The notes below the pieces were generated by a model that saw only the letters and a list, made by a program, of their open reading frames with translations, made no database searches and was not told the DNA's origin. From an archaeon (GTDB taxonomy: Archaea > Hydrothermarchaeota > Hydrothermarchaeia > JALTZZ01 > JALUTC01), in the NCBI GenBank assembly GCA_027051265.1, contig JALTZH010000099.1, forward strand, positions 1 through 16,586: a DNA stretch of 16,586 bases, given 5' to 3'. Below are positions 3,469-14,549 of this stretch, one piece after another; the stretch's first letter is position 1, and every line of letters starts with the position of its first letter. The position numbers and the translations under genes are program-made.

Positions 3469-4485
3469 ATGCAATTTTTACCAAGAATTGTTGCAATTGA
3501 AGTTACCAACAGATGTAATTTAAACTGTATACATTGTAGACTTGGCTATAAAGAGCAACAAGAACTTGATTTCTCTACTGTTAAAAGAATATTGGATGAA
3601 ATTAAAGAATTAAACGATAAAGTTATAATAATTTTAACTGGTGGAGAACCATTGCTTAATAAAGATATATATAAAATGATAGAATATTCAAGTTCCTTAG
3701 GTTTTATTACAACATTAGCAACCAATGGAACATTAATAGATTTAGATACGGCAAGAAAGTTAAAAAATTCTGGACTTAAACGTATAAGTATAAGTATTGA
3801 TTCTCTAAAAAAACATGACTGGATAAGAAATATGAACGGCGCTTTAAATCAGATTCTAAAAGGTATTGAGAATATAAAAAACGTTGGCTTAGAGTTCCAG
3901 ATAAATACAACCGTTTCTAAATTGAACTATAAAGAATTGGATGATATATACGATTTCTCAATAAAAATAGGTGCTAAAGAATTGCATTTATTCTTTCTCG
4001 TGCCAACAGGTCGTGGAAAAGAAATATATTACGAAAGCTTAGATGCAAAGGAGTATGAAGAAGTTATAAATTGGATTTATGAGAAATTAAAAACCGGAAA
4101 TTTGTTTATAAAACCAACATGTGTCCCTCATTTCTATAGAGTTTTATATTCAAGAGAACCAATAAAAGCAAAATCTCGATTCGTAAGGTTTACGAGGGGC
4201 TGTCTTGCAGGTTTATCTTATTGTTTGGTAACGGTAAATTTAGACGTTCAACCGTGTGGTTACTTTCCAATTTCTGCAGGAAATTTGAAGCGTAATAGTT
4301 TTAAAGAAATATGGTTTAATTCCGAAGTATTCAGGACATTAAGGGATTTTAACAACTTAAAAGGAAAATGTGGCATCTGCGAATTCAAGATGGTATGCGG
4401 AGGATGTAGAGCAAGAGCTTTAGCATTAAGGAATGATTATTTAGAAGAGGAACCATTTTGTATATATAAACCATCAAAAGCGTAG
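3469..4485 (+). CDS. Radical SAM/SPASM protein of the AhbC/AhbD/NirJ type
   Basis: The 338-residue protein carries the radical SAM cluster motif C16xxxC20xxC23 (CNLNCIHC), the GGEP motif at 58-61 and TNGTL. The C-terminal SPASM/twitch part has TRGCLAG (C244), C252, QPCGY (C263), GKCGICEF (C301, C304), VCGGCRARA (C310, C313) and EEPFC (C331). The arrangement RGCLAG, QPCGY, AGN, then CGxC, VCGGCRARA is characteristic of the heme-branch enzymes: AhbC (12,18-didecarboxysiroheme deacetylase), AhbD (Fe-coproporphyrin III to heme b) and NirJ. Which reaction it performs cannot be read from sequence alone. No siroheme or heme genes are nearby, so it may act on another substrate. Start: ATG at 3469, with TCTTTAATC about 28 nt upstream as a weak TATA candidate. 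The end overlaps the convergent diphosphatase gene by 12 bases. Confidence 0.85.
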   Translation: MQFLPRIVAIEVTNRCNLNCIHCRLGYKEQQELDFSTVKRILDEIKELNDKVIIILTGGEPLLNKDIYKMIEYSSSLGFITTLATNGTLIDLDTARKLKNSGLKRISISIDSLKKHDWIRNMNGALNQILKGIENIKNVGLEFQINTTVSKLNYKELDDIYDFSIKIGAKELHLFFLVPTGRGKEIYYESLDAKEYEEVINWIYEKLKTGNLFIKPTCVPHFYRVLYSREPIKAKSRFVRFTRGCLAGLSYCLVTVNLDVQPCGYFPISAGNLKRNSFKEIWFNSEVFRTLRDFNNLKGKCGICEFKMVCGGCRARALALRNDYLEEEPFCIYKPSKA

Positions 4486-9509: not shown

Positions 9510-9926
9510 TCATAAAATATATAATAATATTTTAATTCTTTTATTTCTATTCTTAATCCGTTCTATAATTCTTCGATCCAAATCTTTTGCTGCTTTGTTT
9601 GAATTTATTGCCAACGTTCTTTTATCGATATAATTGCTTTTTCTAACAACAATATCTCTATTATCAGATAGGATTAATTTTTTAGAACCATGTGCAATAA
9701 CATGTTCCGTAATGTTATCTACTTTTATAATTATCTTTAGAATTGTTTCATCGTTTTTCAATTCGTTTTTAAAATCTTCATCTAATTCAGATAGCGATTT
9801 GTTACATCTTACTCCTATTATACAATCAGCTCGTATTGAGATTTCTTCATCTTTCGTTATTTCAAATGTTGTTCTATGTTTAGCTGTTATGTTCTCATGC
9901 CCATACGCTATGATCTCTTCCTTCAT
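9510..9926 (-). CDS. DUF371 family protein
   Basis: DUF371 is a conserved archaeal family of unknown function. The 138-residue protein shows its typical features: EEIIAYGHENITAKHRTTFEIT at the N-terminus (the GHxNIxAxHRTT motif), ISIRADCIIGVRCNKS, a central ITEHVIAHGSKKL, and IVVRKSNYIDKRTLAINSNKAAKDLDRRI near the end. No signal peptide or membrane segment is seen. Its ATG overlaps the FKBP stop by 4 bases (ATGA), so it is translated in tandem with the isomerase. The meaning of that pairing is not known. The tail is rich in Arg, Lys and Ile. Confidence 0.9.
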   Translation of the reverse strand: MKEEIIAYGHENITAKHRTTFEITKDEEISIRADCIIGVRCNKSLSELDEDFKNELKNDETILKIIIKVDNITEHVIAHGSKKLILSDNRDIVVRKSNYIDKRTLAINSNKAAKDLDRRIIERIKNRNKRIKILLYIL

Positions 9927-10630
9927 TTATGAGTTTTTTCTTCCTTTCTCTTATATGTTTCCTCAAATTTTATCTCTTTAATCTCTTTTAAATATTTAAA
10001 GACGTTATCTACAAATCTTGATTTTTCTGCTTGTATTAATGATAAGTTTTTAACATTTTCAGGAAGCTTAATCAATATCTTATCGTTTTCCACTTTTATA
10101 TTAACTTTATTCAGATCTAAACTCGTTATACTCATCTCAAAAAGAAACGATATCTTTTCCTCCAATGTTTTAGCAATGCTTTCAACCTTAACTTCATATT
10201 CAACAACTTTTCCAGCAAGTTCTGGATTGAAATCAACTTTAACTCTTCCTCCATCAACACTGATAATTTTTCCTACTACACCGTTAATTTCAACAATAAG
10301 GCCAGGAAGGGGAGTGATTCCTTGTTTTTTAAATTGTTTCATTGGAAATATTTTTATCAAACGATCATCTCTCTTACCAAAAGCTTTTTCTGGTGGTATT
10401 TCAACTCTTTTAGTTTCTCCAACTTTCATTCCAATAATTGCTTCTTCAAGTCCTTTGATAACATGTCCCTCACCAACAATTATGTTAATTGGTTTGTATT
10501 TATAACCTTCTTTATAAATCCCATGCTTTTTTGCTACGTCCTCATATGTTGTGTCGAAAACTCTTCCATCTTTGATTTTTCCTGTAAAACTTATTTTTAC
10601 GAAATCTCCAACCTTTACTTCTTCAGACAT
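9923..10630 (-). CDS. FKBP-type peptidyl-prolyl cis-trans isomerase, long archaeal form
   Basis: This is a cytoplasmic proline isomerase and chaperone. The 235-residue protein begins MSEEVKVGDFVKISFTGKIK, has FDTT and the FKBP core motif VGEGHVIKGLEEAIIGMKVGETKRVEIPPEKAFG, and then the insert-in-flap segment (about residues 88-130). The core returns with NPELAGKVVEYEVKVESI. A C-terminal extension of about 75 residues marks the long form found in Euryarchaeota. ATG 10630 is chosen because the family begins here; an in-frame TTG at 10660 would add ten residues of poor fit. A GTTTAAAC at about 10660-10667 is a possible TATA box about 34 nt upstream. It is the first gene of a two-gene operon with DUF371. 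Confidence 0.93.
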   Translation of the reverse strand: MSEEVKVGDFVKISFTGKIKDGRVFDTTYEDVAKKHGIYKEGYKYKPINIIVGEGHVIKGLEEAIIGMKVGETKRVEIPPEKAFGKRDDRLIKIFPMKQFKKQGITPLPGLIVEINGVVGKIISVDGGRVKVDFNPELAGKVVEYEVKVESIAKTLEEKISFLFEMSITSLDLNKVNIKVENDKILIKLPENVKNLSLIQAEKSRFVDNVFKYLKEIKEIKFEETYKRKEEKTHK

Positions 10631-10714
10631 AATAAATAAAAAATAATTGTTCTGTTGCAAGTTTAAACAATGGTAATAAAAAGCAAAATATGTATAGCAC
10701 CTTTCTTACTCTAA

Positions 10715-10796: not shown

Positions 10797-11265
10797 TTCA
10801 TCCCTATAAAGAAATAAACCTAAGTTTTCTTTCATTTTTGTGTACTTTCCGCAGAAGAGATTAGTTTTTGACAAATATTTCTCTTTAACTGAAACTTTTG
10901 TGAAACATTCTAAGATCATTACGAAAGACTATAGATTCAACTAAAATTAAATTTAACCATTACTACTTTGATCATTATTTTGCTACCTTTTTTTGCATAT
11001 TTATTTACTGTGTAACTATGGATCACAAAATTGATTTGAACTCGTTGTATAGATTCTTAACATCATTTTTCCTAGCTAAATTTGTTTTCAAAGAATACCA
11101 TTGCAAGCAATTAACATTTAGATAGAAAAATGTAGAAAAAAATCCTAAAGATTTTAAAAATTTAAAATTTCTTAAATATTAAAAATTATATAAAAATATT
11201 AGATAAAGAAATCAATAACAACTCAATCCCCAATATGGGTATATAACTAGAGACCTAATGGGACA

Positions 11266-11512
11266 GGTGCTACATTATGAAAATTTTAAATTTTGAAAAA
11301 TTTTATTTATCGATGAAGAAGTAACCTCCTGCTCCAATGACGGTATCGTAACCATCAGGAGCGGGAGATTATTCCTCATATCTCGTAAGGCCACTCATGT
11401 GGTAGCGGTCAATGTAGCTCCCAATGAGCCACTGATAAACATGAGGTGGCTGAGGAAGAAGCCCGTGCACGTATCCAAAATCCTTAAAATCCCTAAAATT
11501 TAGTGCACGGGC
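11266..11512 (+). ncRNA. GC-rich, highly structured segment; candidate omega RNA (reRNA)-like non-coding RNA
   Basis: About half of 11321-11470 is G or C, against roughly a third around it. Pairing read by hand is as follows. Stem A: 11326-11335 with 11358-11367 (10 bp), extended inside by 11338-11340/11355-11357 and 11342-11344/11351-11353. Stem B: 11372-11378 with 11451-11457 (7 bp), continued by 11391-11400 with 11439-11449 (10 bp, one bulge). Stem C: 11461-11470 with 11503-11512 (10 bp). The loop of B (11411-11418) can pair with 11269-11276 (8 bp, plus 2 more after a mismatch), making a pseudoknot. Stem A has a U:G pair on this strand that would be A:C on the other, which favours plus-strand transcription. 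Structure and position before a right end resemble TnpB omega RNA. No expression evidence exists. Confidence 0.4.
11297..11503 (+). pseudogene. Possible C-terminal tail of a lost TnpB-like protein
   Basis: A 68-codon stretch is open from the stop at 11294 to TAG at 11501, with no good start codon. It reads across the structured segment. Its tail, NEPLINMRWLRKKPVHVSK, is loosely reminiscent of the poorly conserved tails of archaeal TnpB proteins, whose coding ends overlap the guide RNA. The zinc-ribbon and RuvC residues are absent. The frame may be open only because this segment is GC-rich. Confidence 0.25.
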
Positions 11513-11546
11513 AACCATCAATAATTTACTCCCCAATGAAAGGGGG
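11461..11546. repeat. Right-end hairpins of the element
   Basis: The first hairpin has perfect 10-bp arms, GCCCGTGCAC (11461-11470) and GTGCACGGGC (11503-11512). The loop has 32 bases and holds three degenerate AATCC(n)TAAA-like units before TTTA. Without those units it would be a compact TTTA-loop hairpin like those at archaeal IS605 right ends, so the loop looks expanded. The second hairpin is CCCC (11531-11534) and GGGG(G) (11542-11546) with a 7-base loop, followed by CTGATGTCAATGA. Confidence 0.55.
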
Positions 11547-11635
11547 CTGATGTCAATGAAGCCTAAAAGACTAGTGAAAAATTTTTACCAGGCCTGAATC
11601 CCTATTTTCTTATGTAATTATGAAGATAAAATTGT

Positions 11636-12793
11636 TTATCCTTTTTCAAATATATGAATAACTGATGTTGAGCCACTTCCTCCTATATTATGAGTTAAAC
11701 CATAATCCGCATCCACTTGATTATAAGCTTTACCTCTCAACTGTAAAACAATTTCAACTGCCTGTGCTACACCTGTAGCTCCAACCGGATGTCCTTTAGC
11801 TTTCAAACCTCCACTTGGATTTATTGGGATTTTACCACCAATCCACGTTTCACCTTCTTCTACTGCTTTACCACCTTTACCTATTTGAACAAAACCTAAT
11901 GCTTCAATTGCAAGAATTTCTCCTATTGTAAATGCATCGTGAACCTCAGCTACTTGTATGTCTTTTGGTTCTAGTCTTGCCATCTTGTAAGCTTGTTTAG
12001 CAGCATATAATGTTGCTTCTTGAATAACTAAACTTCTTCTGTCAGATAGATTTATACTTGAAGATGCTTGAGCTGAAGCAATTATATATACTGGACTATC
12101 CGTATATTCCTTAGCAATTTCCTCATCCGCTAATATTATACATGCTGCTCCATCACTTATTGGTGAACAATCCAATAATCTTAAAGGATCAGCAACTAAT
12201 GGTGATCGTAGAACATCTTCAACAGTTATTTCTTTTCTAAATTGAGCTAAAGGATTTTTTGTTGCATGTTTATGATTCTTAACAGCAACCAATGCTAATT
12301 GCTCTCTTGTTGTTCCAAACTCATACATATGTCTTCTTGCTATTAATGCATATAGTCCAGGAAACGTCAACCCTATAAATGCTTCCCATTCCTGGTCAGC
12401 TGCTGTTGCTAAGATTTCTGTTGTTTTTTCAGTAACAACATCGGTCATTTTTTCAACACCAGCAACAGCAACGATTTTATGCATTCCAGATAATATTGCC
12501 ATAACTCCTTGTCTTAATGCAACACCTCCAGATGCGCAAGCATTTTCAACTCTAACTGCTGGTATTGGAGTTAAACCTGCATGATCAACTATAAGACTAG
12601 CTATATGTTCTTGATCAATGAATCTACCTGCAGACATATTTCCTATATACAACGCCTCTATATCCTTCCCTTCTATTCCAGCATCTTCTATTGCTTTAAT
12701 ACCAGCTTCTAAGAAGAGGTCACTAAAGCTTTTATCCCATAATTCTCCGAATTTTGTTATACCAACTCCTAGTACTGCAACTCTTTTTTTCAC
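11636..12793 (-). CDS. Acetyl-CoA C-acetyltransferase (archaeal thiolase of the mevalonate pathway)
   Basis: It condenses two acetyl-CoA to acetoacetyl-CoA, the first step toward archaeal isoprenoid lipids. The 385-residue protein shows the nucleophile motif [13 protein letters not shown] (Cys86 from this start), [16 protein letters not shown], the [10 protein letters not shown] histidine and [14 protein letters not shown]. The C-terminus [18 protein letters not shown] is typical of the archaeal subfamily, which lacks the usual C-terminal catalytic cysteine. I chose GTG at 12793: a GAGGTG lies 6 bases upstream. An in-frame GTG at 12802 would lack that site and overlap the HMG-CoA synthase stop. 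In methanogens and Thermococcales this enzyme binds HMG-CoA synthase through a DUF35 protein; no such gene follows here. Confidence 0.93.
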
Positions 12794-12795
12794 AT

Positions 12796-13833
12796 TTACC
12801 ACCTCAACTTATTTCTAAACTTTGCATATATCGAATAATCTATATATCTTTTATTGTTTATGTAAAAATCAACAGTTCTATTGTTATTTCTTTTCTTTGT
12901 TATACAATCTTTGACAACAAAACTAAACGCATCACTTCCAGCTCCAGATCCATATGAAACGAGTAAAATCCTTTCTCCTGGATTTGCTTTATCCAATACT
13001 CTACAGAAACCTATTAGACTTGATGCCGAGTACGTATTACCAATCTTATCTACTACGAATCCATGCTTAAGCTGTTCTTTATTAAAACCAAGCATCTTTG
13101 CTACTCTTATTGGAAATTTTCCGTTGGGTTGATGAAAGACTACATGATTAAAGTCCTTTGGCTTTAAGTTAAGTTTTTCCATCAAACCTTTAGCAGCGTT
13201 GTATATATGTTTAAAATATGCAGGCTCTCCTGTAAATCTACCTCCATGTTTTGGATAATCTTGCTTTGCTCTTCTCCAAAAATCTGGAGTATCTGTTGTA
13301 TATGAAAATGTTCCTTCCAATTCTGCAATAACCTCATTTCTTCCTATAATAAAAGCAGCTGCTCCACTTGCAGCTGTATATTCTAAAGGATCTCCAGGTG
13401 ATGATTGAGCAGTATCACTACCTACTGCTAAACCGTATTTTATCATATTGGATTTAACTAAACCAAAACATATTTGCATTGCAGCAGTTCCTGCTTTGCA
13501 TGCGAATTCTAAATCAACTAGCATAACATCTGGCGTAGCTCCAATAGCTTCTGCAACTATAGTTCCACTTGGTTTAACTGCATATGGATGAGATTCCGAT
13601 CCTATAAATATTGCTTGAATATCTTTTGGATTAATTTTTGCCATTTTTAACGCGTTTCTACTTGCTTCTACTGCTAATGTAACAACATCCTCATCAAGAG
13701 ATGCGACAGCTTTTTCTGATATTAATAAACTAGATCGTATTTTGACAGAATCTTGCCCCCATATTCTAGCGATTTCTTCAACTTTAATTCTATAGAGAGG
13801 AATATAGACACCATATGCAACTATACCAACCAT
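12796..13833 (-). CDS. Archaeal hydroxymethylglutaryl-CoA synthase
   Basis: It joins acetyl-CoA to acetoacetyl-CoA giving HMG-CoA for the mevalonate pathway. From ATG 13833 the protein has 345 residues, the usual archaeal length. It opens [20 protein letters not shown]. Active-site motifs are [12 protein letters not shown] (Glu near 80), [11 protein letters not shown] (Cys112) and [11 protein letters not shown] (His near 234), with [13 protein letters not shown] near the end. The upstream GTG at 13842 would add three residues, but AAGGTG 6 bases before 13833 supports the ATG. The start overlaps the regulator's TAA by one base (TAATG). The last 35 residues are Asn/Lys/Tyr-rich and extend past the catalytic domain. 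Regulator, synthase and thiolase form one operon. Confidence 0.95.
12800..12805 (-). promoter_or_regulatory. Shine-Dalgarno GAGGTG that fixes the thiolase start
   Basis: GAGGTG stands 6 bases before the GTG at 12793 and lies within the last codons of the HMG-CoA synthase gene. It argues that the thiolase is re-initiated inside the operon at 12793, not at 12802. Confidence 0.6.
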
Positions 13834-14549
13834 TATAGACACCTTAATTTTTCTTTAAGTTTATTCACATCATCACACTTAGCAACAGAAATTGCATCAA
13901 TTTTAGCAAGTTCGATTCCAAATTCATCAATATTACCGCATATAACAATTAAAGAAGGTTTTATAGGAGAAATGCGTACAGCAATAAAAGGACTGCGACC
14001 AAACTTAACGTTTGTAAAAATTAGAGCTCTATCAGAAGTTAAACCAAATATTTTTAAGAAATCTTCATAACTATATTCTTTTATAACTTTTAAACTATCT
14101 AATAGAGTATATCCATATATCTTTCTATCATTTCCTTTTAATATTAATTCTAATTCCAGTTTTTTACAGAAATCTTCTATATCATAAGGAAATGCAAACT
14201 CTTTAATCTCGATGAAATCTTTTCTCTTTATAGTTTTTACGTTAAGATATTTTTTCAGTACTCTAAAATTATTTTTTTTATCAAGTTTTATTAACGCATT
14301 TACGAACCTTTTGATAAACATTGCTCCAGGATTTTTTCGTCTACATCTTTCATAATCGGATAGAACACTTGGGGATACCTTTAAAAGCTTTGATAATTCA
14401 AGTTTAGAAACGTTAAAGATCTCACGCCATTTTTTCAAGGTTAAACATGGATTTTCAGAGAGAACAATTTCACCGGCAATTCTCTCTTTAAACTCCTTAA
14501 TAATATCGTCTATGTTATCACTTTCCAATGTCTGCATATAAAAATTCAT
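13833..14549 (-). CDS. COG1709-type HTH transcriptional regulator of the mevalonate operon
   Basis: This 238-residue archaeal protein has an XRE/Cro-type helix-turn-helix at about residues 37-75 ([38 protein letters not shown]). A C-terminal domain follows with [34 protein letters not shown], presumably a ligand-sensing or dimer domain. Genes of this family commonly precede archaeal HMG-CoA synthase and thiolase, so control of isoprenoid precursor synthesis, and of its own operon, is the best guess; the ligand is not known. ATG 14549 is used. An in-frame ATG at 14537 lies about 27 nt from a TTTAAAT box and could be a leaderless start instead. Confidence 0.85.
13840..13845 (-). promoter_or_regulatory. 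Shine-Dalgarno AAGGTG for HMG-CoA synthase
   Basis: AAGGTG lies 6 bases before the ATG at 13833, inside the last codons of the regulator gene. It supports translation from 13833 within the operon. Confidence 0.55.

Follow-up and report, generated by a model that had tools for sequence, protein, structure and literature searches.

The segment described here is very probably the right end, with its omega/reRNA, of an IS607-type TnpB transposon of archaea, residing in a non-autonomous, protein-less derivative of that transposon. It lies on contig C99, which constitutes the window (the whole stretch of DNA that was analysed, 16,586 nucleotides) and belongs to a 1.46-Mb archaeal assembly of 257 contigs that is ~95% complete. 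An earlier note on this DNA had proposed that the right-end-derived RNA of a TnpB element may survive here without its nuclease. This idea is supported, since the same genome holds one tnpB-linked copy and at least seven other protein-less copies. The type of element is already known, but the family itself appears to be undescribed.

The repeat character of the segment was revealed by a search of its own genome, a check that the earlier note had suggested. Positions 11284-11517 proved to be a dispersed repeat with ~10 further places, the best at an E value of 6e-98. Strong matches were found on C71 (94%), C139, C49 (91%), and C119. Those on C22, C191, C52, C155, C104, and C90 were weaker, and two more copies, C178 and C40, came from a second query. 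Short AT-rich matches on C208, C113, C85, C26, C20, C27, and C59 were judged to be due to chance.

The candidate region had been placed at 11266-11546. Homology to the element was indeed found there, but it spans ~11274 to 11517 only, and the sequence beyond is target-site flank, which includes the guide position. All features of the element and of its host repeat given here lie on the plus strand. When the left-end (LE) remnant of the IS607-type element (11274-11325) is aligned with the LE/tnpA leader of the C49 parent, 44 of 52 positions are identical. Its outermost ~38 bp are gone, and with this outer part lost the window copy is probably immobile. The right-end (RE) segment, an omega/reRNA-like scaffold (11326-11518), is 91% identical to the 3′ end of the C49 tnpB gene plus RE and is present at ~10 other genomic places. 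The conserved RE body has its last position at 11517 (..GGGCAACCA), and in all copies the similarity ends directly after AACCA(C/T). In ISDra2, the reRNA takes in the 3′ end of tnpB and the RE together with ~16 nt of flanking sequence (PMC8612924). By analogy, the putative guide position, i.e., the first ~16–20 nt of target flank past the RE, would occupy 11519-11538, with a boundary uncertain by 1–2 nt; the copies share no similarity here. The tnpB frame of the window copy is still open as far as the stop of the gene, although other stop codons immediately precede the open part. Rfam scans of the window and of the parent gave no relevant family and no RAGATH-18 match.

The copy on C49 forms the 3′ end of a tnpA-tnpB element and comprises the last ~60 tnpB codons and ~14 nt past the stop. 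Because of this composition, the window segment can be recognized as a TnpB right-end (omega/reRNA-like) segment. The C49 tnpB stop is located at 4038 and the RE, together with the shared sequence, ends at ~4052; the final ~60 codons of the gene are thus also part of the RNA segment. It is thus found at the tnpB 3′ end and terminates at the transposon right end, as is known for omega RNA/reRNA. Copies adjoining tnpB had been named beforehand as a supporting sign, and this one is flush with the gene and overlaps it. The upstream tnpA gene (2103-2723) encodes a protein of 206 aa with a Resolvase domain (PF00239, E 5.8e-26) and HTH_17, and is separated by 7 bp from tnpB (L038, 2731-4038). The 435-aa TnpB matches PF07282 (2e-12) and resembles Cas12f/TnpB structures. 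A serine-recombinase TnpA with a MerR-like HTH, upstream of tnpB, is the arrangement of IS607 elements, and no match to a Y1 (HUH) TnpA (PF01797) was obtained in this ~95% complete assembly. The parent is therefore of the IS607 type, and the IS200/IS605 parentage that had been assumed was abandoned. Close relatives of the C49 TnpB occur in public MAG records labelled S141. Among 23 genomes of the phylum, its relatives were limited to the copy in genome G002 and the distant C39 protein, and the viral contigs searched with TnpB gave no match. The 1.46-Mb genome (G000) contains 16 PF07282 matches on 15 contigs, many of them truncated or stop-bearing.

The plus strand of the segment folds strongly. 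The energy of 11240-11560 is -96.3 kcal/mol (z = -4.6), and 11320-11518 reaches z = -6.3. Eleven copies were compared, and they fall into two subfamilies: A (window, C71, C139, C119, C49, and G002) and A′ (C22, C155, C90, C178, and C40). Of the three stems drawn by hand in the earlier note, A and C were borne out as perfect or near-perfect helices that are present in other copies, while stem B was only partly retained. Stem A corresponds to hairpin P1 (11326-11367), in which 11326-11335 pairs with 11358-11367 and an inner GGU/ACC helix is formed by 11342-11344/11351-11353; one pair of the inner helix shows a U-A to G-C double change. Stem C is the terminal hairpin P4 (11461-11512), which has 10 bp, 92% of cells paired in nine copies, and two pairs with double changes. 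Several protein-less copies carry A-C mismatches in P4, which indicates that some of them are decaying. Stem B can form in the window, where RNAfold also finds it, but its inner half (11391-11400/11439-11449) can be formed neither in the C49 tnpB copy nor in subfamily A′. For this reason, inner stem B can characterize no more than a single lineage. Between the two confirmed hairpins, hairpin P3 (11427-11432/11446-11451) and its short closing helix P5 (11418-11420/11452-11454) are arranged around an AATGA motif (11418-11454 in total). The P5/P3 arrangement recurs in C49, C22, C155, and C90. It is also seen at two less closely related tnpB ends, those of C39 and C153, where P3 is likewise closed around an ATGA motif and a long terminal hairpin then leads to the end of the element. 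The order of P5, P3, P4, and end is common to other IS607-type tnpB ends of the genome; at the C17 tnpB end, the arms can be placed by eye and the ordered pattern is not matched.

A pseudoknot between the loop of stem B and 11269-11276 had also been suggested. The two strands (GCTACATT and, at 11411-11418, AATGTAGC) are exact 8-bp complements in the window. However, 11269-11273 lies within a decayed neighbouring repeat and the strand is missing from every other copy, so this pairing is not a feature of the family. An H-type pseudoknot at 11376-11410, composed of S1 (11376-11380/11398-11402) and S2 (11389-11392/11407-11410), is better supported, and the support may be described as moderate. Both sides change between the subfamilies in 4 of 5 pairs of S1 and in 3 of 5 pairs of S2. 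The two helices form the pseudoknot in both subfamilies, which is true of 0.7% of shuffled segment pairs, a figure computed after the geometry had been seen. The conserved stems and pseudoknot typical of omega RNA/reRNA can thus be recognized here, the stems by covariation and the pseudoknot with moderate support.

Compensatory changes between copies had been proposed as a check and were found. The counted structure comprised 22 pairs (inner P1, S1, P3, and P4). The consensus that RNAalifold derived from the 11 aligned rows was weak, owing to the truncation of some copies and to indels that set the subfamilies apart, and the named 22-pair structure was counted in its place. Across the 11 copies, 86.8% of cells were paired vs. 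79.0% in shuffles, double-change cells numbered 22 vs. 9.8, and the covariation score was 0.276 vs. 0.158; none of 500 shuffles reached the observed values, although kin sequences can beat shuffles even without structure. Versions of the structure that were slid along the alignment were at most 45.7% paired, so the stems exceed both types of control. Since most double changes separate A from A′ and represent few independent events, the covariation support is good but not overwhelming.

In at least eight copies, including that of the window, the left end is joined directly to the RNA segment, and neither tnpA nor tnpB is present. The set consists of the window, C71, C139, C22, C155, C90, C178, and C40, and some of its members are truncated at the ends. 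C119, which ends at a contig edge, was left out of this classing. The left end (GACTATTCGTTTATTTGAGG...ATTACGAAAA...) abuts P1 and is complete in six protein-less copies, whereas in C71 it is cut by the contig end. The right end is missing in C139 because of the contig end and in C40 because of truncation. Stops in the tnpB frame are present in C139 and C155. The G002 copy represents an internal deletion that brought the start of tnpA against the end of tnpB. As in MITEs and PATEs, the copies are dispersed and the ends of the parent are present, some truncations aside, while the transposase gene is absent. Two further loci, L053 (C191:5115-5204) and L054 (C104:135-217), are chimeric protein-less copies, in which the LE and P1 of the family run into a right-end segment like that of the tnpB on C17; the C17-derived part is 94.7% identical over 151 nt, and C17 has no P1 of its own.

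These features can be compared with several known systems. As in the omega RNA/reRNA of TnpB proteins (ISDra2 type, IS200/IS605; PMC8612924, PMC10278001), the tnpB 3′ end and the right end are followed by a putative guide position in the flank, and the stems lie close to the 3′ end. Unlike ISDra2-type omega RNA, the window family has an IS607-type parent, differs in details of sequence and fold, lacks an Rfam match, and occurs mostly without tnpB. The RAGATH-18-type reRNA of IS607 TnpB (PMC11061315) is also associated with an IS607-family TnpB and is a right-end RNA of ~180–200 nt; it lies outside the coding sequence, whereas the RNA segment of the window family extends from within tnpB to ~14 nt past the stop. 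Transposase-free archaeal elements are represented by the Haloquadratum PATEs (PMC3119063) and by Sulfolobus MITEs such as SMN1 (PMC3718332). PATEs are relatives of IS605 elements that have kept the near-terminal palindromes of IS605-type transposons (PMC3119063). The window family differs from PATEs and SMN1 in its IS607-type parent and in a kept right end that contains the RNA segment over its full ~190 nt. ORF-less IStrons (PMC4227781) are another parallel, as TnpB-family elements, some with IS607-type parts, that occur as ORF-less copies, but the window family has no group I intron. For protein-less archaeal copies of an IS607 omega RNA, the open-access literature yielded no prior account. 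The present family thus appears to be an undescribed IS607-type omega-RNA family, without an Rfam match and lying almost wholly within the tnpB coding sequence.

The anatomy of the copies fits a mechanism in which the serine recombinase TnpA of the element would have spread them in trans. A plus-strand transcript of each copy, if produced, would then supply a scaffold ending just before 11518 and a guide from the copy’s own insertion flank. A TnpB from elsewhere would bind this RNA and target the empty site, an activity that would favour retention of the copy. The proposal that such an RNA is produced and serves a TnpB in trans is tentative, and somewhat less than an even chance is assigned to it. 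If it holds, protein-less guide-RNA elements would mean that the spreading unit can be the RNA and not the nuclease gene, with TnpB acting in trans. One small genome containing copies with differing guides and one altered TnpB makes such spread testable.

The strongest rival, a serious one that also falls a little short of even probability, accepts this identity of the segment but no function: the copies would be inert MITEs that all derive from one internal deletion, with ends kept for the serine recombinase and an RNA that is either not made or not used. Retention of the RE could accordingly reflect end recognition by the recombinase or descent from one deletion and not a function of the RNA. 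The mismatched stems of several copies, the loss of the outer left end from the window copy, and the replacement of a catalytic Asp in TnpB agree with inert copies, but stem covariation above the shuffled and slid controls does not. Furthermore, IS607-type recombinases are thought to require short ends only, yet ~190 nt, from P1 onward, is kept in all copies.

The replaced residue is the third Asp of the RuvC D-E-D triad. When the TnpBs of the genome are aligned, the C49 protein has His here (CGFTFNIHYVACLNL), whereas every other one that reaches this position has Asp. Alignment with PDB entries sets the C49 His against the Asp of Cas12f-type chains, and the G002 TnpB has the same His. In a bacterial IS607 TnpB, D371A, at the corresponding residue, is reported as one of the active-site substitutions that eliminate interference (PMC11061315). 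The C49 TnpB is therefore predicted to be inactive as a nuclease. Guided cleavage is doubtful, since the only cognate TnpB found has this His. The D-to-H gene adjoins a seemingly intact serine-recombinase tnpA. An unlikely alternative is that the dispersed RNAs form a trans-acting guide set for the nuclease-dead TnpB, which would bind many RNAs and repress or mark sites instead of cutting them. In its favour, the His is shared by C49 and a distinct copy from a second genome, while the other tnpBs of the C49 genome that cover the position keep Asp, and TldR offers a precedent (PMC13418256). Nevertheless, the TnpB still stands beside an apparently intact tnpA and not beside a host gene, a signal of domestication is absent, and the guides derive from insertion flanks, the intact targets of which are empty sites. 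The notion that, in an archaeal IS607-type family, a nuclease-dead TnpB works with scattered protein-less guide RNAs, binding DNA under RNA guidance as a repressor or site marker instead of serving as a nuclease, must be considered very improbable.

It is also quite unlikely that the structure belongs to the DNA or to the minus strand, as transposon-end palindromes would. The minus-strand fold is slightly better, but tnpB is encoded on the plus strand, and S1 needs a U-G pair in 11/11 copies, which would be A-C on the minus strand.

The earlier note had further considered reuse as a host RNA. The segment lies between genes which, named by eye, we take to be an FKBP-type gene (9923-10660, minus strand) and a thiolase/HMG-CoA-synthase pair (11636-13842, minus strand). 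When it was sought in 40 relatives, only the G002 copy was found, at a different place; in the 22 other genomes of the class that were covered, this copy was likewise the sole match. In all 12 relatives for which the downstream genes were read, thiolase is followed by an OB-fold/DUF35 gene (in G002, a partial ORF and a PF01796 match). With no RNA at this site in any of these relatives and the OB-fold/DUF35 gene after thiolase instead, the RNA is no long-standing occupant of the site, and the idea of a long-kept host RNA is not supported. A domesticated host RNA maintained at the window locus, to which the strong fold and the intergenic location might point, is thus highly improbable given these relatives and the dispersal of the copies. 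In this assembly, the OB-fold/DUF35 gene is intact and located on C207 after a prenyltransferase-like gene, and the repeat insertion occupies its expected place beside thiolase; the loci concerned are 11636-12802 in the window and L147 1363-1758.

The element itself sits inside another decayed repeat, repeat B. The 5′ remnant of this host (11215-11273) shares 78% identity with the C139 copy of repeat B at its start, and the 3′ remnant (11529-11579) is 85% identical to C139 and 78% to C50. Approximately 80–110 bp of repeat B is absent between the remnants, and the element is found in that place. No tnpB parent of repeat B was present among the loci read. Repeat B is dispersed, with copies at C139:440-800, C50:20803-20939, and C232:8043-8337, and its terminal hairpin is long; it also has a CTCCCCAATGA motif, as in TnpB right ends.
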